Shown here: positions 40,239-50,548 of the stretch, one piece after another
Numbering within the stretch: the first letter of the stretch is position 1
How the letters are laid out: each line of letters begins with the position of its first letter
Origin: Flavobacteriales bacterium
GTDB lineage: Bacteria > Bacteroidota > Bacteroidia > Flavobacteriales_D > Sanyastnellaceae
Direction of reading: 5' to 3'
Assembly: GCA_027491075.1 (NCBI GenBank)
Contig: JAIXWX010000034.1
Location: 248,001 to 312,000, forward strand
DNA length: 64,000 nt
Made by a program: the position numbers and the translations under genes
Notes under the pieces: model-generated
The model's input: the letters and a program-made list of their open reading frames with translations, nothing else
Told to the model about the DNA's origin: nothing
The model's database searches: none

Positions 40239-43001
40239 TTATTTAATTTCAAACGAACAGGACATGACACTTAGATTTCCTTTAGGTAAATGAAAGTTTG
40301 AATCTTGTTTGATTTGGAATTTTTCCCATGTATTGTTGGTATTGGGAAGCTCTATCTTGGCGACTGTTTTTCCGTCTTCTGTTTTAAATTCTAGGGTTTC
40401 TACTTTTTGTGATTTGTACAAGAAGTCAATGGTGTTTTCGGGTGCATCAAACCAATTTGGAGAAGTATCTTCTAAATCTTTGTATCGATAAGTAGGCTCG
40501 AATACTAACGATAAATTTTCTTTTTGAGAATGACGAACAGCGCGAAGATCTATTTTCCACAAAGACCTTCCATGAGTAGCAACTACGAGCTCTTGTTCTC
40601 TTTTTTGAATTACTAAGTCATGAATGGCTACGTTGGGAAGATTTCCCAGTTCCATAAAACTTAAACCTCTGTCTATACTTATATAAAGTCCGTTGTCAGT
40701 ACCAACATACAGCATATTTTCATTGGTGTCATCTTCGCGAACAACGTTGATCGGTTCAAGTGGTAGGCTGGAAGCTATGTTTCTCCAAGTTTTACCGAGA
40801 TCATCACTCACGAATAAATAAGGCTTCATATCGTCGTTGCGGTACCCGTTTAAAGAAACATAAATTCTTTTTTCTTGATGAGCCGATAGCACTATTCGAC
40901 TTACGTATTGTGTTGGAAGTCCACTTGCGATGGAAGTCCAAGTGGCTCCAGCATCTTGCGTTATGTGAACACTTCCATCATCGGCGCCTGTGACAAGCAT
41001 TCCAAAACGAAGGGGAGATTCTGAAATCGCAGTGATGGTTCCAAAGGGTACATCGCCTGGAATACTTCCTTTAGTTAAATCTGGGCTGATGGTACTAAAG
41101 TTCTTCCCAGCATCTAAACTACGATGAACACGATTGCTGCATATATAAAAGATATCGGGTTGATGGGGAGATATCAAAATTGGAGTTTGCCAATTGTATC
41201 GAAGGGGTTTTTCACCGAATGAATGTTCGGGATGAATTTCTAAATAGTCTTTGGTGTTAAGTTCCAATCGCGCGTAATTGCCAAATTGATATCCAGTATA
41301 TACTCTGTTGGCGTCTCGCGGGTCCACTTGTACTTGCATGCCATCACCTCCCATGATGAACTGATAAGGATAACGTCCTTCGTAAGTCCAATTTCGGTTG
41401 GGTTCGTTGTTGGAAGGCCCTTTCCAAACACCGTTGTCTTGCAATCCTCCATATACGTTATACGGTTCTTCATTGTCTACTTGAACGGTATAAAATTGTC
41501 CTACAGAAACAGTATTGCAGTTGACGAAGTTCTTTCCGCCGTCTTCGCTGTATTGCACTCCACCGTCGCTTCCATTCAATAGCCAGTCGGGATGCTGGGG
41601 ATGCACTTTAAGCACGTGGTGATCTACATGGACATTCCCCGGATTGATTCCTTTCCATGTTTTGCCGCCATCTGTACTTTTAATGAGTGGTACTCCGCAG
41701 GTGTATAGTTCATCCGGTCTGGAAGGATGTACTTCCATCATTCCAAAATAATAGCCGTAGGAATATACCACGTTGTCTGAATATCCATCGTGCGTTTTTT
41801 TCCAAGTTCCTTCATCGAATGAATACACATATACTTCAAGGCCGATTACTGGTGTATTGAAAAGATCTTCATTCGCATCAAAGAGGTAGTCGTAAATGGC
41901 GCTCGGGCGGTATCTGTCTGAAGATATCAAGCTACGGATACTATCTTTGGAAAGGGTTCTTGGAAAGGCATTTTCTTTCAGAAACAATGAAAATCGAGCA
42001 GTATCCAAGGCAAGAAACTCTTCTTTGGTCATATTGAGAAAGTCGATTTTTTTTAAATTGGACTTTGTCGAATCAGGCTTTGCATCGTTGGGACGAGGAT
42101 TTTGATTATCTAATGAGGCGTACAAGTATTTTTTGTTGTTCATCATGGCAAGAGCGAGGCCGATGCGTCCTGTTCCAATTCCTTTAGGAAATCCATTCAT
42201 GAAAACCTGCCAGGTTTTTCCTCCGTCCATTGATTTATAGATTCCACTTTTTTCTCCTGCTTCTTGAAAGTTCCAAGCACGGCGAGAACGATGCCAAATA
42301 GCTGCATAAAGTTCATCAGGGTTATCAGAATTCAATTCCAGGTCAATCGCACCAGCGTTTTCATCTACAAATAGTTGATGTGTCCAATTACTTCCTTCAT
42401 CGGAAGAAAAGTAAATACCTCTCTCTTTATTGGGTGTATATAGATGACCAAGTACTGCTACCCATATTTTATTTGGATCTGTGGGGTGAAGTACAATTTT
42501 TCCTATGTGATGTGACTCAGGAAGTCCTTTGTAAATCCACGTTTTTCCATTGTCTTTAGAAGAGTACAAACCGACCCCGCTGTAGCTAGAGCGACTGCTA
42601 TTGTTTTCTCCAGTTCCTACCCAAATGGTGTTGGTGTTCCAATCGACAGCAATAGCCCCAATCGTCATGGCCGCGAGATGGTCCATTAAAGGTTCGAAGG
42701 TGACGCCATGATTTTTTGTTTCCCACAATCCTCCAGAAGCATAAGCGACATACCAGTGAGATGGATCCTTGGGATCCCACGCTAGATCTGTTACTCGGCC
42801 GCTCATTACAGTGGGACCAATGCTAATCGCAGGGATTTTCGAAAAGAGCGCATTCATTTCTGATCGCTTTTCAAAAGACTGAATACGTTCAATACCCGAC
42901 GTAGAAGAACTTTGCAAGTTATTCGTTTTTCTTTCTTTTTGAGAAAAGGCGGATAGCGTTAAAATGAAAAGGAAGACGGCGAGTTTAAAAGACTTTGTCA
43001 T
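40239..43001 (-). CDS. Exported sortilin/VPS10-like beta-propeller protein
   Basis: A 920-residue protein with signal peptide MTKSFKLAVFLFILTLSAFS. Nine or more Asp-box strands are visible (SSKDNGKTW, SSDEGSNW, SMDGGKTW, STDGGKTW, SEDGGKNF, SLDAGKNF, TQDAGATW, SDDLGKTW, SIDRGLSF), which indicates one or two multi-bladed propellers as in the sortilin/'glycosyl hydrolase BNR' group. An insertion rich in charged residues lies near residues 300-360. The last ~120 residues are a separate beta domain and no T9SS sorting domain is evident. Role unknown; it is divergent from the LytTR regulator gene. Confidence 0.87.
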   Translation of the reverse strand: MTKSFKLAVFLFILTLSAFSQKERKTNNLQSSSTSGIERIQSFEKRSEMNALFSKIPAISIGPTVMSGRVTDLAWDPKDPSHWYVAYASGGLWETKNHGVTFEPLMDHLAAMTIGAIAVDWNTNTIWVGTGENNSSRSSYSGVGLYSSKDNGKTWIYKGLPESHHIGKIVLHPTDPNKIWVAVLGHLYTPNKERGIYFSSDEGSNWTHQLFVDENAGAIDLELNSDNPDELYAAIWHRSRRAWNFQEAGEKSGIYKSMDGGKTWQVFMNGFPKGIGTGRIGLALAMMNNKKYLYASLDNQNPRPNDAKPDSTKSNLKKIDFLNMTKEEFLALDTARFSLFLKENAFPRTLSKDSIRSLISSDRYRPSAIYDYLFDANEDLFNTPVIGLEVYVYSFDEGTWKKTHDGYSDNVVYSYGYYFGMMEVHPSRPDELYTCGVPLIKSTDGGKTWKGINPGNVHVDHHVLKVHPQHPDWLLNGSDGGVQYSEDGGKNFVNCNTVSVGQFYTVQVDNEEPYNVYGGLQDNGVWKGPSNNEPNRNWTYEGRYPYQFIMGGDGMQVQVDPRDANRVYTGYQFGNYARLELNTKDYLEIHPEHSFGEKPLRYNWQTPILISPHQPDIFYICSNRVHRSLDAGKNFSTISPDLTKGSIPGDVPFGTITAISESPLRFGMLVTGADDGSVHITQDAGATWTSIASGLPTQYVSRIVLSAHQEKRIYVSLNGYRNDDMKPYLFVSDDLGKTWRNIASSLPLEPINVVREDDTNENMLYVGTDNGLYISIDRGLSFMELGNLPNVAIHDLVIQKREQELVVATHGRSLWKIDLRAVRHSQKENLSLVFEPTYRYKDLEDTSPNWFDAPENTIDFLYKSQKVETLEFKTEDGKTVAKIELPNTNNTWEKFQIKQDSNFHLPKGNLSVMSCSFEIK

Positions 43002-43147: not shown

Positions 43148-43162
43148 CGAAGGTAAGGTATC

Positions 43163-43198
43163 AAATTCTCAAAAAAGTATATCGATTTCTCAAAAAAA
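43163..43198 (+). promoter_or_regulatory. Candidate LytTR binding site upstream of the response regulator
   Basis: Two direct half-sites, TTCTC-AAAAAA at 43166 and TTCTC-AAAAAA at 43187, start exactly 21 bases (two helical turns) apart. LytTR proteins such as AgrA bind paired direct repeats with this geometry. A closely similar site is found at 46902, upstream of the next large gene. Confidence 0.6.
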
Positions 43199-43236
43199 GA
43201 GTGCACCTTGGAGGTTCGACTTTTACATTAGTTCGT

Positions 43237-44013
43237 ATGGTGAAATGTGTGGTTATTGATGATGAGAAAAATTCTAGAGACTTTTTGGTAAATCTGATTG
43301 GTCAGTATTGTCCAGATATTTCGGTGATTGGCACTGCTAGTGGTGGGGTTGAGGGACTTCAAACGGTGGCGGAGCTGAAACCGGATGCGGTATTCTTGGA
43401 CATTCGCATGAGCGATATGGATGGGTTTACTGTAATGCAACGATTGCCCGAGCCGCGGCCCATGGTCATTTTCGTCACTGCGTATCAAAAATATGCCCTT
43501 CGAGCCATCAAGGCCAGCGCAATTGATTATCTGCTCAAGCCAGTAAATATTGGTGAATTACAAGATACTTCAAGAAAATTGAAGCAATTGCATGAACTCC
43601 GGTTTTCCAATCCTCATTTTAGAAATGAATACAATGACGCACTGAAATTGGTGATGCAAAGTGCCAGTGAATCCCAGCCATTGCGCATTGCATTGCCTCA
43701 TCATAATGGATATCGATTTGAACGCATGAATCAAATCGTTCGGCTGGAGAGTGACAGCAATTATACCACCGTGTTTTTAGAATCAGGAGAGAAAGTAATG
43801 GTGAGCAAGCCGATGAAGCATTTTGAGGATTTTCTAGATGAATCGATGTTTATTCGCATACACAACTCGCACATCATTAATATGAAGTTTTTAAAAAGCT
43901 ATAACAGAGACAAAGGAGTAGCTGAATTAGAGGGACAGAAGGAAATTCCTATTTCCAAAAGAAGATTAGCCGTTTTTATGGAAGCGATGAAGAAAACCTT
44001 TTACAAACCTTGA
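43237..44013 (+). CDS. LytTR-family response regulator
   Basis: A 258-residue regulator. The receiver domain starts MVKCVVIDDEKNSRDFL, with acidic pair Asp9-Asp10, phospho-acceptor Asp55 (AVFLDIRMSDMDG) and lysine in YLLKPVNIGEL. The LytTR DNA-binding domain spans about 150-258 (IVRLESDSNYTTVFLESGEK, FIRIHNSHIINMKFLKSY). ATG 43237 is chosen because it begins at the receiver's first strand; the frame is open further upstream but over the regulatory region. The stop overlaps the kinase start (TGATG), so both are made together. Confidence 0.95.
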   Translation: MVKCVVIDDEKNSRDFLVNLIGQYCPDISVIGTASGGVEGLQTVAELKPDAVFLDIRMSDMDGFTVMQRLPEPRPMVIFVTAYQKYALRAIKASAIDYLLKPVNIGELQDTSRKLKQLHELRFSNPHFRNEYNDALKLVMQSASESQPLRIALPHHNGYRFERMNQIVRLESDSNYTTVFLESGEKVMVSKPMKHFEDFLDESMFIRIHNSHIINMKFLKSYNRDKGVAELEGQKEIPISKRRLAVFMEAMKKTFYKP

Positions 44014-46901
44014 TGCAAAAAATGCGCTTTATTTTTATTTGTCTATTTGTGTTTGCGTATTGTAGCGCCTCAACGCAGAATACGATTGGATTTTCATATA
44101 CCAATTTTAATGCATCGAACGGATTGCCGAGTTCCCAAGTTCAGGGCTTGTTTCAAGACAGTCATGGTTATATCTGGGTGCTCACTGATAGAGGTGTTGC
44201 ACGTTATGACGGTTATGAGTTTAAGATTTATTCTAGCGAGAATGGATTACATTCTCCAAGTATACTCTTGATAAATGAAGACGCGCATGGGAATATTTGG
44301 GTAATGACCAATGAGGGGAAGTATTACCATTTGGATCATGATTTTTTTAAAGAGTATAAGGGAAATAAGCGTATCGCAGCGTTGTTGAAGGACAAACTTC
44401 CAGGACCATTTTTTTTCGATGATGATAACGTTATGTGGGCGACGACTTTTTCGGGTACGCAGCTTTTCAAATGCGTTGAAGACAGTGTAGAAGAGTATCA
44501 ACCAGAATGGCCGAATAATCAAGCCAAACCTACTTATTTTTTGAAACAAGTGAATGATCGCTTGCTTAACCTTCGTGTTGGCGAGGTCAAGGAAGTAAAT
44601 GAGATTCAAACGGCTCCTGATCTTACCTATCTGTTGAATGTTGCAGGTGAGTGTAAGTTGGCTTGTTCAGTGCAGGTAGAAAGCAATAAGTGGGTGGTTA
44701 GCGGTCCCGGTGGATATGTTGTTTTTAGCGATAAAGGTGAAATCGTTGCATTGTTCGAACCATCTCCGTATGTGTTTGGAAGTATGGATCGCGATCGCTC
44801 AGGAAATCTTTGGACAACAGACAGCCATGGGGCTCATCTAATTCATGATTATTCTAATCCACGAAATAGAACCACTTATTTTGAAGGTCGATTTATTACC
44901 ACGGTGATACAAGATCAGCAAGGTAACTATTGGTTAGGAGATCGGGATAATGGGGTTTACTTAGTTCCTAGTCTGAATATTTCAGTGATTAGAAGTAGAG
45001 AAAATGCTAGCAAGAAGCAAAAAATTACTTCACTGAAAGAGTGGAATGGACAGATTTACGCGGGGGATGCATCAGGTCAAGTGCATGTTTTGAAAGGAAA
45101 AGACTTGATTCCAATGATGGTAAGTGAATTAGAAAGTGAGGTGTCGGTGGACTTTTGTGTGCTGCCAAATGGAGATCTGCTCACTGGAAGTAAGCCGAGC
45201 ATTTATTCGGTTCAATCAAAACGTTTTTCTCAACCGATAACCGATAAAGTTATGCGGGGTGCAACCTTACTTAAAGATAATACGGTAGCAATCGCGACGC
45301 CAACAGGAATATTGATGCGATCTCCAGAGGGCGATGTAATTAGTGTCAGTGAAGGTCGATTCAAGGAGCGGACGAATAAGATTTACGAGGGTGGTGACTC
45401 GGATAGATGGGTAGGTACCAATTCAGGACTATTTCAGTGGTACAACGATTCAATCTATTCAGTTGCAATTTTGAATGAACTAAAGCCTCGGGTATTTGAT
45501 ATATGTGAGTGGAAGGATTATTTGCTTTTAGCTACACGTAATCTCGGACTTATAGTGTTTCATAAAGAAAGCGGAAGTTATTTTGTATTGAATCATGCCA
45601 ATGGATTACTTTCTTCAATAACGGATGCTGTATGTGTGGATGCTGAGGATAGAATCTGGTTGGGCCAACAAGGAGGTGTTCAACGCGTCACTTATGATTC
45701 TATGTTGATGAAATTCCATTTTCATACGTTGAACGTCAGTAAAGGACTATCTTCTAATGAGATCAACGATTTGTTAGTATTAAATGATACGGTGTATGCT
45801 GCAACGAATGATGGAATTTCCATTTGGCCAGCACGTCTTATCAATGCTGCACCCGAAAGCAATGTCTTGATTCATACGTTTCGAACTGGGGAAGAAGAAC
45901 TGGCATTAGTGGATAACCCCGAGTTAACCTACGATAGAAACAACATTTCCATATCGTTTACCGCCTTGAATTTTCGAACTGGAGTAAATACCCAATATAG
46001 ATATCGCTTGAATGGCTACAATACGGAGTGGGTAGTTACTGATGCAAGAACCATATTTTATTGGCAGTTACCTCCTTCTAGTTATACCTTCGAGGTGCAA
46101 GCGATGAATGAAGATGGTATATGGAGCGAATCGAGCATCTTATCATTCAAGGTACTTCCGCATTTTTCTCAAACCATTTGGTTTAAGGTACTATCTGCTA
46201 TAAGCATTATTGCTTTGGTACTTTTTTTCAGTTTTTTATACCATAGGAGGAAGAGGGAAGAGTTGAATGTACGCACCAAAATGACGGAATTGAAGCAACA
46301 AGCTTTGAACGCGAATATGAATCCTCATTTTATATTCAATGCACTCAATAGCATTCAACATCTGATCAATTCGGGGAAGTCTGTGGAGGCCAATGAGTAT
46401 CTTTCTTCTTTCAGCGCTTTGGTGAGAAAGAATTTGGAGTCGATACGATATGCTATGGTATCGCTGGAGGATGAGCTCGAACGGTTGGATTTATATATCA
46501 AATTGGAGCAGTTGCGTTTTGGGGATAGAGTACGCTACGTGGTAGATATTGATGAGAAAGTACACCCTTACGATTTAGAGATTCCGCCCATGCTGCTTCA
46601 ACCGTACGTGGAAAATGCATTGCTTCATGGAATTCTCCCAGAAGAGAGGCAAGGAACAATATTGCTTTCCATCCGCATTTTCACTACGAAATATATTATT
46701 TCTATTAAGGATGATGGAGTAGGAATAGAGCATTCTCGATTGAACAAGCGAAGCGACCATGAAAGCATGGCCCTGAAGATGAATGAAGAGCGGATGAGTC
46801 TAATTCGATCTGCCGAAGGCGCCGATTTTGGGGTGGTGATTTCAGACTTGTCTGTGAAAGGAGAAAAGGGAACGGAAGTGATTATTACGCTTCCTATTTG
46901 A
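44013..46901 (+). CDS. Propeller-sensor histidine kinase (LytS/His_kinase type)
   Basis: A 962-residue membrane kinase paired with the LytTR regulator. Signal peptide RFIFICLFVFAYCSAS; residues about 25-640 form ligand-sensing propeller blades of the Reg_prop type (SQVQGLFQDSHGYIWVLTDR, ITDAVCVDAEDRIWLGQQGG); about 645-715 is a Y_Y_Y domain (QYRYRLNGYNTEWVVTD). One membrane span near residues 725-745 is followed by a His_kinase domain with NANMNPHFIFNALNSIQHLI (phospho-His) and an ATPase domain with QPYVENALLHGILPEE and DDGVGIEHSRL. Such architecture usually senses periplasmic polysaccharide or polymer fragments; the ligand here is unknown. ATG 44013 overlaps the regulator's TGA. Confidence 0.94.
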   Translation: MQKMRFIFICLFVFAYCSASTQNTIGFSYTNFNASNGLPSSQVQGLFQDSHGYIWVLTDRGVARYDGYEFKIYSSENGLHSPSILLINEDAHGNIWVMTNEGKYYHLDHDFFKEYKGNKRIAALLKDKLPGPFFFDDDNVMWATTFSGTQLFKCVEDSVEEYQPEWPNNQAKPTYFLKQVNDRLLNLRVGEVKEVNEIQTAPDLTYLLNVAGECKLACSVQVESNKWVVSGPGGYVVFSDKGEIVALFEPSPYVFGSMDRDRSGNLWTTDSHGAHLIHDYSNPRNRTTYFEGRFITTVIQDQQGNYWLGDRDNGVYLVPSLNISVIRSRENASKKQKITSLKEWNGQIYAGDASGQVHVLKGKDLIPMMVSELESEVSVDFCVLPNGDLLTGSKPSIYSVQSKRFSQPITDKVMRGATLLKDNTVAIATPTGILMRSPEGDVISVSEGRFKERTNKIYEGGDSDRWVGTNSGLFQWYNDSIYSVAILNELKPRVFDICEWKDYLLLATRNLGLIVFHKESGSYFVLNHANGLLSSITDAVCVDAEDRIWLGQQGGVQRVTYDSMLMKFHFHTLNVSKGLSSNEINDLLVLNDTVYAATNDGISIWPARLINAAPESNVLIHTFRTGEEELALVDNPELTYDRNNISISFTALNFRTGVNTQYRYRLNGYNTEWVVTDARTIFYWQLPPSSYTFEVQAMNEDGIWSESSILSFKVLPHFSQTIWFKVLSAISIIALVLFFSFLYHRRKREELNVRTKMTELKQQALNANMNPHFIFNALNSIQHLINSGKSVEANEYLSSFSALVRKNLESIRYAMVSLEDELERLDLYIKLEQLRFGDRVRYVVDIDEKVHPYDLEIPPMLLQPYVENALLHGILPEERQGTILLSIRIFTTKYIISIKDDGVGIEHSRLNKRSDHESMALKMNEERMSLIRSAEGADFGVVISDLSVKGEKGTEVIITLPI

Positions 46902-46938
46902 CAAATTCTCAAAGAAATCTATCATTTTCTAATTCACC
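46902..46938 (+). promoter_or_regulatory. Candidate LytTR binding site upstream of the 1185-residue cargo
   Basis: CAAATTCTCAAAGAA at 46902-46916 repeats the first 15 bases of the site at 43162 with one change. The second half-site TTCTA begins at 46927, again 21 bases after the first TTCTC. The site ends about 52 bases before the ATG at 46991, and GATATTTG (46963-46970), a near -7 element, lies between, the arrangement expected for an activator. Confidence 0.6.
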
Positions 46939-46990
46939 GCATGAATACTTGAAAAGTCTAAAGATATTTGGCTATCCAAAAAGAAGCAAT

Positions 46991-49900
46991 ATGAAATCAA
47001 TATTGATAGCGACCATTTCAGTCCTCCTCACCGCATCCGCTTTCGGACAATTGATCATCACCGCACCGGTGGATGCCAATCCCTCTGGTGTGTCTGGTGT
47101 GAGTTCTTATATTCTCAACACCAAAATTTGCCAGGAAGGATCGCTGAACCACTGTATACAAGTTAGTGGAACGGGAAGTAACTATTCTATAGCCTCCTTT
47201 AACGCTTCCTCAGGAACAATTCTTCCCGTTGCTGGAACTTGTTTTAATTATACAGCGGCACCTGGATTCTCTGGAGTTGCTTCTCTGTTCTTTACGCTTC
47301 AAAATAATTTGGGAGAAACAGCGAATCTCACGGTCAGTATTGAAGTAGTCAATCAGTTTCTACCCGTGAACGTTGGAGCAAATGTTTTTTTATACAATGA
47401 GTACGAATACACCATTACTTCGGCGGTAGTGAATCCTCAAGTCAATGGCTCATGGACAGAAATCCAAGATGGAGTGATTTTGTCGGATGTAAATTCTGCA
47501 AATACTACTTTCTCAAACTTGCAACCCGGGGGGAATTATTTTGTGTGGACGCAAGTGTTGCCTTGTCAAACCATACGTGATCGATTCATGATTTTTGTGC
47601 ATGATCACATAGAGCCGAATCTTCCAGCGTCAATTACTGTAACGCAATTCAATGAAGTGCTGGATAATTGTTCCGATGAGGACGATTTGCCGATCTCGAG
47701 CTTTAGTTCTTCTTGTCCAGTAAATGTAGAAACCACCGTCACATCAAGTCCTATTCAATATTGCGAAGTAGAAGACGCGTCAGATCAAGGGTCGTGTTTA
47801 TACAGTTCTCCGTGGTCGATGGCATTCTTTGCGGGATTTAATAGCACTTATAGATATTCTCAAAAGATAGATTTGAGATTGCTTCAGCATCCTGGAGGAG
47901 ATATTCAATTGAAGGGAACTGTTCATCTATGGAATCGTCCTCAGGCGATTTTCGAGGTGGACGCTTGGTTTTACAATGCTAAAACTTGGACCGAATGGTC
48001 GAATCAGTGGTCCCTCTCTTCATTTAAGGCGGATTGTAGCGGAATAGCAGGCAATCATCCCGATTGGATGTATTATATGATGGCCTACGGAAAACTAATA
48101 GGCCGTGGAGAACTCGAAGGAACAGTGTTGAATTTGGTACATGCACCATCGAATTTCTTTTTTGGCTTTCAGATGGGAGAAGGAGCGAACAATGTTTCCT
48201 CGGGCTATGGATTTGGAGGCTGGTTCAATGTGACGGGACAGCTAGTCGATATTCCATTAAACGTCAATCAGAGTGTTAGTGGGGCTGGTGATTTTGCAGT
48301 AGAAATGAATTGTTGCAGCGGACAATCGTATGATGTGAATTACAATGTAACGGATGAGTGTGGGAATATTGGAACTTGGCACGACCAATTCGAAGTAAAC
48401 GATGCCACTACTCCTGTACTCACAGATACTCCTCCGACAATACTGAGTTGTGAGACTCTAGATTGGACGGGAACATGGCAAGATGCATGCAGTGAAGTAT
48501 CCATAAATGTTATCCCGAATTATTTAAGCGTGGAGGACGGAAATGATGTTTACACTGCATTCATCACTGCCACAGACGCTTGCGGAAATTCAAGTAATTA
48601 TGAATTTGTACAAGAGGTATTTGATGAGGCATGCGAATCGCTTGGTTGCACTCAGGAAACAGCAATAAACTTTGATCCAGCGGCAATTATCGATGATGGA
48701 AGTTGTCTGTTTGAAGGATGCCTTGATCCCAATGCGACGAACTACGACGAGAACGCTAGTATAAGTGCGCCTTGTTTTTACAATCCTGGAATATTCGTTT
48801 TCCATGACTTGAATATGGATGGAGTATATCAGGAAGGAGAACCAGGACTGGAAGGGTTCGCCGTTCAATGGAACAACGGAGCCGTTTACTTCTATACCAA
48901 TGAGAACGGGAATGTAGAGACAGAATTTGCCGAGGGAGAACATGAGTTTTTCTTGGTACTCAACGATATGACTTGGACCAACACAACTCCATTGTTGGTG
49001 AGCTACACTAGTGCGGAACCTGTTCAGGTGATGTTCGGTTTGAGGTTATCTGACTTAGCAGAGAATACAAGTTATGAAGTGTTTTTTGATTTATCGGGAG
49101 TTGCATTCTGTGAGCATTCAACTATAGCAGGCGCAGTAATTCACAATTCAGGTACAGAGTCGATTTTCATTCAGGCCAACGTGACAATGTCTTCAGAAAT
49201 TCAAATTAGTACTGATGTACAAGCCGAGTTTCCTGGCATGCAAACCGACAATAGTATTTCTTGGAATTCAGTAGAAGTAGTGCCCGGTGATTGGATTAAT
49301 TTATATGCATTGATTCCTGAGCAAGGGATTGCTTCTGCAGGTGTTACGGCCCAGGGTGAAATTTCCATACAGGTGATGGACGAGGCGAATTCACTCTTAG
49401 AAGAGTTAAATGCGAGCGAAGTATTCACCGTTTTTTGCGAAGAAAATGCTGTAACAATGCAGGTGGAACCAATAGGTTATAGCACCGAGCATTTTATATT
49501 GGCTGGCGACCAATTGCATTATAAGGTGACATTTTTTAACCAAGGAAATAATGTGATTCAGAATGTGAAGGTGGAGGATTTTCTTGAAGAAGAAATCTAT
49601 GACCTTTCAACGCTACAGCCAGTTGTAGCAAGCGATTTATCCTTGTTCTGTTTACACGATGATGGAATGATCGATTTATTTTTCAACGATATCAATTTAG
49701 CACCTGGTGCTACCGGATATGCGATATATGCAGTGAACGTGAGAGAAGATTTAACTCTTGGCACTTTGGTACTGAATGATGCTACTGTTGTTTTCGATGA
49801 GGCACAAACCACTGCTACGAATAGTGTTTTTAACACCATTTTTGATTGTGATGTGTTTTTAGATATAGTGGCGCAAGAAGAGTTGTGTTTGGGAGATGCT

Positions 49901-50548
49901 ATTAGTATATCTATGATTCAACCCTATGTAGAATCCTATGCTTGGTATATTGATGAGGTACTTGTATCTAATTCATCGGAGTTGCTTTTTGATGAGTTTG
50001 TTTTAGGAGAAAATACCATTTCGGTCACCGTGGAGAATCCATTGTGCTCTAAAACGTTGTATCATACTGTGAATGTGAATCCCCAACCTGGAGATCAGAT
50101 TGTATGGGATGAAGGGACTGAGGCACTTCAAGCACCAGACGGTAATGCTTGGGTGTGGTATTATGAAGGATTCTTAATAGAAGGAGCCAATGATCAATTC
50201 TTTTCTGATGTAATGAAAGGCAGCTATACTGTCGTTGTTACCAATGAATGGGGTTGCACGCAAGAATCGGAGCCTTTTGTTATTACTAGTTCCACAGCTG
50301 CAATAGGCGACAAGTTAAGGTTGTATCCTAATCCTGCCAATGAGTTCGCGCGCGTTGAGTTGCCTGAAGGAGTTTGGGAAGTGGTTGTAGTGGATATATC
50401 AGGAAAGAGGGTTACTGCGAGCAGAAAGATGCAAGGAAATTCAATGTTAGATCTTTCCGAGTTATCTGCTGGTTCATACGTTGTACAGATTCGAGGTGAA
50501 AGTGACTACTTTGCTATACCGTTACAAAAACTATTTGGGGAGAAGTAG
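46991..50548 (+). CDS. Large secreted multidomain protein with T9SS type A sorting domain
   Basis: A 1185-residue cargo; ATG 46991 gives the signal peptide MKSILIATISVLLTASAFGQ, although the frame is open to 46898. The middle holds two copies of a Cys/Asp-rich unit (GCTQETAINFDPAAIIDDGS and GCLDPNATNYDENASISAPC), then an SdrD-B-like module (FHDLNMDGVYQEGEPGLEGF) and a DUF11/DUF7619-type module (GDQLHYKVTFFNQGNNVIQN). The last ~75 residues are a type A sorting domain (LRLYPNPANEFARVELPEG, VVVVDISGKRV, LSAGSYVVQIRGE). It lies 90 bases after the kinase gene with a LytTR-type site in between. Function probably adhesion or matrix; no enzyme motif is seen. Confidence 0.92.
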   Translation: MKSILIATISVLLTASAFGQLIITAPVDANPSGVSGVSSYILNTKICQEGSLNHCIQVSGTGSNYSIASFNASSGTILPVAGTCFNYTAAPGFSGVASLFFTLQNNLGETANLTVSIEVVNQFLPVNVGANVFLYNEYEYTITSAVVNPQVNGSWTEIQDGVILSDVNSANTTFSNLQPGGNYFVWTQVLPCQTIRDRFMIFVHDHIEPNLPASITVTQFNEVLDNCSDEDDLPISSFSSSCPVNVETTVTSSPIQYCEVEDASDQGSCLYSSPWSMAFFAGFNSTYRYSQKIDLRLLQHPGGDIQLKGTVHLWNRPQAIFEVDAWFYNAKTWTEWSNQWSLSSFKADCSGIAGNHPDWMYYMMAYGKLIGRGELEGTVLNLVHAPSNFFFGFQMGEGANNVSSGYGFGGWFNVTGQLVDIPLNVNQSVSGAGDFAVEMNCCSGQSYDVNYNVTDECGNIGTWHDQFEVNDATTPVLTDTPPTILSCETLDWTGTWQDACSEVSINVIPNYLSVEDGNDVYTAFITATDACGNSSNYEFVQEVFDEACESLGCTQETAINFDPAAIIDDGSCLFEGCLDPNATNYDENASISAPCFYNPGIFVFHDLNMDGVYQEGEPGLEGFAVQWNNGAVYFYTNENGNVETEFAEGEHEFFLVLNDMTWTNTTPLLVSYTSAEPVQVMFGLRLSDLAENTSYEVFFDLSGVAFCEHSTIAGAVIHNSGTESIFIQANVTMSSEIQISTDVQAEFPGMQTDNSISWNSVEVVPGDWINLYALIPEQGIASAGVTAQGEISIQVMDEANSLLEELNASEVFTVFCEENAVTMQVEPIGYSTEHFILAGDQLHYKVTFFNQGNNVIQNVKVEDFLEEEIYDLSTLQPVVASDLSLFCLHDDGMIDLFFNDINLAPGATGYAIYAVNVREDLTLGTLVLNDATVVFDEAQTTATNSVFNTIFDCDVFLDIVAQEELCLGDAISISMIQPYVESYAWYIDEVLVSNSSELLFDEFVLGENTISVTVENPLCSKTLYHTVNVNPQPGDQIVWDEGTEALQAPDGNAWVWYYEGFLIEGANDQFFSDVMKGSYTVVVTNEWGCTQESEPFVITSSTAAIGDKLRLYPNPANEFARVELPEGVWEVVVVDISGKRVTASRKMQGNSMLDLSELSAGSYVVQIRGESDYFAIPLQKLFGEK

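Follow-up and report, generated by a model that had tools for sequence, protein, structure and literature searches.

Candidate tandem LytTR repeats upstream of a propeller-kinase two-component operon and an adjacent T9SS cargo gene in a Flavobacteriales bacterium

Background

The hybrid two-component systems (HTCS) of Bacteroides have a periplasmic Reg_prop/Y_Y_Y sensor that feeds a cytoplasmic histidine kinase. The locus described here encodes the same type of sensor joined to a histidine kinase. However, the sensor, kinase, receiver and DNA-binding domains of HTCS reside in one polypeptide, whereas here the kinase and the regulator are encoded by two genes, so that the locus is not an HTCS. 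The output domains differ as well, being of the AraC type in HTCS and LytTR here.

A LytTR site is a pair of 9-11-nt repeats with a spacer of 11-13 nt, and such sites have no common consensus (PMC4847170). In Streptococcus mutans the autoregulatory LytTR repeats lie 4-11 bp upstream of -35 (PMC6193735), and the promoter-proximal repeats of AgrA are centred near -60 (PMC4227749). The repeats predicted in Bacteroides have the form TCCGGTATTCA-11-ACCGGAAATCA and are followed by the -7 box TATCTTTG (PMC6193735).

AgrA of Staphylococcus aureus and YpdB of Escherichia coli resemble the system considered here in that the regulator combines a receiver with a LytTR domain, and direct repeats two helical turns apart lie just upstream of the core promoter; the essentially single target of YpdB can be counted as a further likeness (PMC4847170, PMC4227749). 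In contrast to both, the kinase here has a propeller/Y_Y_Y sensor, the half-site is (C)CGAATTCTCA, the predicted target is a T9SS cargo protein, and the promoter contains a Bacteroidota -7 box. The LytTR Regulatory Systems (LRS) share with our locus tandem LytTR repeats, autoregulatory in LRS and predicted to be so here, upstream of the operon promoter. However, the LRS regulator is paired with a membrane inhibitor, whereas its partner here is a histidine kinase, and thus the locus is not an LRS. The LRS-like repeats of Bacteroides have the same xCCG...TCA frame and -7 box as the sites described below (PMC6193735). Their period is 22 rather than 21, and no secreted-cargo target has been reported for these operons, whereas a T9SS cargo is predicted here.

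Our literature search, which covered few subscription journals, yielded no link of LytTR regulators to T9SS cargo promoters and no half-site of this kind.

The locus and its two sites

The window, G000:C22:248001-312000, that is, the whole stretch of 64,000 nucleotides analysed, contains the following features.

43162-43192, plus strand: site A, CAAATTCTCAAAAAAGTATATCGATTTCTCA, with 44 bp between the site end and the regulator start codon
43162..43171, plus strand: distal (first) half-site of A, CAAATTCTCA, found by pattern and matrix searches
43183..43192, plus strand: proximal (second) half-site of A, CGATTTCTCA, 21 bp 3' of the first
43224..43231, plus strand: predicted -7 box TACATTAG, 5/6 of TAnnTTTG, 40 bp from the core start of the proximal repeat of A
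43237..44013, plus strand: response regulator P0003, receiver and LytTR domains, 258 aa (Pfam)
44013..46901, plus strand: sensor histidine kinase P0001, Reg_prop propeller, Y_Y_Y and His_kinase domains, 962 aa (Pfam)
46902-46932, plus strand: site B, CAAATTCTCAAAGAAATCTATCATTTTCTAA, with 58 bp between the site end and the cargo start at 46991
46902..46911, plus strand: first half-site of B, CAAATTCTCA, starting one base past the kinase stop codon
46923..46932, plus strand: second half-site of B, CATTTTCTAA, degenerate, 21 bp 3' of the first
46963..46970, plus strand: predicted -7 box GATATTTG, 5/6 of TAnnTTTG, 39 bp from the core start of the proximal repeat of B
46991..50548, plus strand: secreted protein P0002, DUF7619 and Por_Secre_tail domains, 1185 aa, the predicted target (Pfam)

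The preliminary description, made from the sequence of the window, had named these genes as a LytTR response regulator, a propeller kinase and a T9SS cargo, and the Pfam domains bear this out. P0003 contains PF00072 (E 4.4e-21) and PF04397 (E 4.9e-15) and retains the phospho-acceptor Asp55, Thr81 and Lys101; in a search of solved structures, the matches listed span the receiver domain. The two genes belong to the same operon, the kinase gene starting on the last base of the regulator stop codon; the kinase contains PF06580 (E 3.9e-21) and His772. Judged by its domains, the locus thus qualifies as a candidate LytTR two-component system: a regulator with receiver and LytTR, a PF06580 kinase in the same operon, and repeats with a period of about 21-22 bp upstream of the target core promoter. 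P0002 is a putative T9SS cargo, as it has a C-terminal sorting domain (Por_Secre_tail, residues 1111-1171, E 2.2e-9) and the genome encodes a T9SS (SprA_N, E 1.7e-161).

A stretch of the cargo, residues ~211-484, recurs with 30-44% identity in many large proteins of the family that otherwise differ. No Pfam model matches this region, which is an undescribed secreted-protein domain. On the other side of the operon, a 920-aa Sortilin-Vps10/BNR-repeat protein is encoded on the minus strand (40239-43001), divergently from the regulator. Site A lies ~160 bp away from the start of that gene, which it might influence as well.

The TTCT cores are at 43166 and 43187 in site A and at 46906 and 46927 in site B. 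This confirms the spacing of exactly 21 bases claimed previously for both sites, and the likeness to LytTR direct repeats two helical turns apart also holds, the geometry being equal to that of the described sites (PMC4847170, PMC6193735). The two 30-mers are identical at 24/30 positions. The window contains no better further match to A than one of 20/30, in agreement with the earlier claim that there is no other paired copy. Both sites are diverged copies of the conserved half-site, and the second half of B is degenerate relative to the CGAATTCTCA consensus. No Rfam family was found over the region.

Proposed mechanism

We suggest, with a probability of about 0.8, that the propeller-kinase/LytTR system activates both itself and the adjacent T9SS cargo gene. 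The membrane kinase, sensing through its periplasmic propeller/Y_Y_Y domains, would phosphorylate the LytTR regulator encoded just upstream. The phosphorylated regulator would then bind the tandem (C)CGAATTCTCA-type repeats, one protomer per half-site, 21 bp (two helical turns) apart. Since a constant distance separates the repeats from the -7 box downstream, the bound regulator could recruit RNA polymerase to two promoters. At site A this would raise transcription of its own operon, creating positive feedback, and at site B it would turn on the adjacent T9SS-secreted DUF7619 protein. The phosphorylation step and binding by this particular regulator are inferred, and so is activation, from position only. 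Among the observations that count against this explanation, the second half of site B is weak, B alone scoring 13.9 with the matrix described below, and similar sites are present in genomes that lack an orthologue of the regulator, where other proteins may read them.

Conservation and distribution of the sites

Another genus of the family contains orthologues of the system (G010, G040, G049 and G064; 57-63% identity for the regulator, 40-46% for the kinase). The kinase is truncated in G029 and decayed in G009. In the two other species examined from the genus to which the window belongs, the system was not found, the best regulator there being 41% identical. The preliminary description had named as a check that the motif be conserved upstream of orthologues. 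It is: a paired site occurs 66-76 bp before the start codon of 4/4 orthologous regulators of the other genus. Moreover, G010 repeats the second position, with a site just after the kinase, 80 bp before a DUF7619/T9SS cargo gene, that is, placed as B is; a third site precedes a second DUF7619 cargo gene by 56 bp. The motif is, by these alignments, an island of conservation amid diverged flanks: between A and the G010 regulator site the identity is 71% in the motif and 16% and 35% on either side of it, and between B and the G010 cargo site it is 56% in the motif and 28% and 34% on either side.

In all, 30 regulator loci were scanned. Sites were found at five orthologues, the window included, and none above score 10 at the 25 loci of regulators with ~35-41% identity, and thus the site follows this orthologue group. 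Conservation is weaker for the cargo link than for autoregulation, since in G029 and G071 a DUF7619 cargo gene lies beside the system with no site detected by the matrix scan. Its support comes from two genomes, the window and G010. No orthologue of the cargo was found among 150 relatives, the matches being at the domain level, and its conservation was therefore assessed from gene position and domain content. In G009 (C76, L069, 3224-4424), an intact perfect paired site lies on the opposite strand beside the decayed kinase fragment; this is apparently a remnant of a lost system.

Elsewhere in the order, strong sites were observed upstream of large proteins with signal-peptide-like N-termini. 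These are PKD-rich proteins (G035, G013/G032, G022), an SprB-repeat protein (G008), a Fib_succ_major protein (G077) and an endonuclease I with Por_Secre_tail (G097). The cargo gene of G013 is convergent with a LytTR gene. The same repeats occur at LytTR operons of two other families, none of them a close orthologue: in G117 they precede a kinase-LytTR operon by ~100 bp and have a TATCTTCA box at 38; in G107 they come just after a kinase-LytTR pair; and in G122 they come after a LytTR gene. Since further LytTR systems and genes for secreted proteins have these repeats as well, the code extends beyond this pair; it is patchy, as a strict match was found in 18/399 genomes sampled from the order.

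An alternative is that a different, more widespread LytTR regulator reads the repeats and controls many secreted proteins in the order, the adjacent regulator being one of its targets. Strong sites in genomes without a close regulator orthologue are in favour of this. However, the present genome has only two sites, at this system and its neighbour; the regulator loci with and without a site separate as described above; and some of the other sites adjoin LytTR operons, as would fit a local reading of related sites by related regulators. We consider this alternative unlikely, and prefer local control by the adjacent system.

Two of the distant loci have additional features. In G122 (C2:33800-45800, L106; minus strand, 9399 to ~5960) LytTR-like repeats come directly after an unrelated pair of a kinase (278 aa) and a LytTR gene. 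Beyond two small genes lies a second array, of three to four repeats spaced by 21 bp, which has a perfect TAACTTTG box; this is possibly an independent LytTR regulon. In G107 (C94, L248; minus strand, ~7497 to 7320) the paired repeats come directly after the kinase-LytTR operon, with an intrinsic-terminator-like hairpin within ~170 bp and no obvious reading frame, and could drive a small RNA.

Half-site consensus and promoter phasing

The consensus is CCGAATTCTCA-N10-CCGAATTCTCA with period 21. When GAATTCT pairs with gaps of 4-34 were collected from the 150 relatives, this period was the commonest (16/67), followed by 18 (10/67).

A 5/6 match to the Bacteroidota -7 box TAnnTTTG was found to start 38-40 bp downstream of the first base of the second GAATTCTCA at 9/9 system-linked sites, namely A, B, three in G010, and one each in G040, G049, G064 and G071. 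With six representatives, none of 1501 shuffles placed all six boxes in one 3-nt window. Sites with a third repeat (G097, G122, G008) have the box 59-60 bp from the second repeat, which is 38-39 bp from the third. No strong -33 elements were identified at these promoters. With this fixed distance the regulator would sit immediately upstream of the polymerase, like its counterparts at the described LytTR-activated promoters.

Position alone cannot prove activation, and AgrA can act from other positions. Thus the bound regulator could instead be a repressor, its phosphorylated form shutting off both itself and the cargo. However, the repeats lie entirely on the upstream side of the -7 box, at the fixed 38-40 bp, a distance that in three-repeat sites grows by one or two repeats, and the described LytTR-activated promoters have the same arrangement (PMC6193735, PMC4227749). 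Repression is therefore quite improbable, and activation by the adjacent system is retained.

Specificity of the sites in the genome

The genome comprises 3.02 Mb in 34 contigs, and genome-wide counts were obtained by pattern searches. The pattern RAATTCTC-N13-RWWTTCTM has exact matches at sites A and B only, so that the concern raised in the preliminary description, random genome-wide occurrence of the paired motif, does not materialise. With a looser pattern, whose gap is allowed to vary by one base, a single extra, out-of-phase match appears on another contig. With a matrix built from sites of other genomes only, A and B rank first (29.2) and second (13.9) in the window. Of 300 second-order Markov copies of the window, none reached a score of 29, and eight reached 13.85; the chance of a B-type score inside the 89-bp gap that holds B is ~4e-5.

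In the 150 relatives the paired-repeat pattern has 68 matches, compared to 13 for the reversed pattern, and at most one mismatch leaves 18 compared to none. Many two-mismatch matches fall within coding sequence or are microsatellites; those were left out of the site counts. Although short TTCT pairs are common, the region is A/T-rich and B is degenerate, these counts, the two exact matches and the conservation in another genus despite diverged flanks make a chance resemblance of A/T-rich promoter sequence very improbable, and for site A it is already refuted.

Short arrays of a seven-base-type repeat, AAATTCTAAACTC(C/T), are scattered in the genome; they are low-complexity look-alikes of the half-site.

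G000:C15:4394-4443, AAATTCTAAACTC(C/T) repeat array
G000:C17:68110-68159, AAATTCTAAACTC(C/T) repeat array
G000:C17:94954-94982, AAATTCTAAACTC(C/T) repeat array
G000:C32:261620-261648, AAATTCTAAACTC(C/T) repeat array

Implications

Conservation, spacing and promoter phasing support the initial prediction of an autoregulated propeller-kinase/LytTR system with the neighbouring cargo as its target. An autoregulated LytTR two-component system is a functional kind already known. What appears to be new is the half-site together with its constant spacing from the -7 box, and a T9SS cargo as the target. There is about an even chance that part of this order, whose members have a T9SS, shares a LytTR promoter code, in which large secreted proteins as well as LytTR operons are controlled by (C)CGAATTCTCA repeats, two to four of them spaced by 21 bp, with the final repeat a fixed 38-40 bp from the -7 box.

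These bacteria have numerous kinase/LytTR systems, yet the literature searched yielded no account of the DNA sites or the targets of such systems. A half-site, a promoter geometry and a predicted direct target, all derived from sequence, would make such regulons predictable from genomes. If the order does share such a code, dedicated propeller-kinase/LytTR systems would switch single surface or secreted cargo proteins. The locus also hints that individual T9SS cargo proteins are under dedicated control that responds to a signal.
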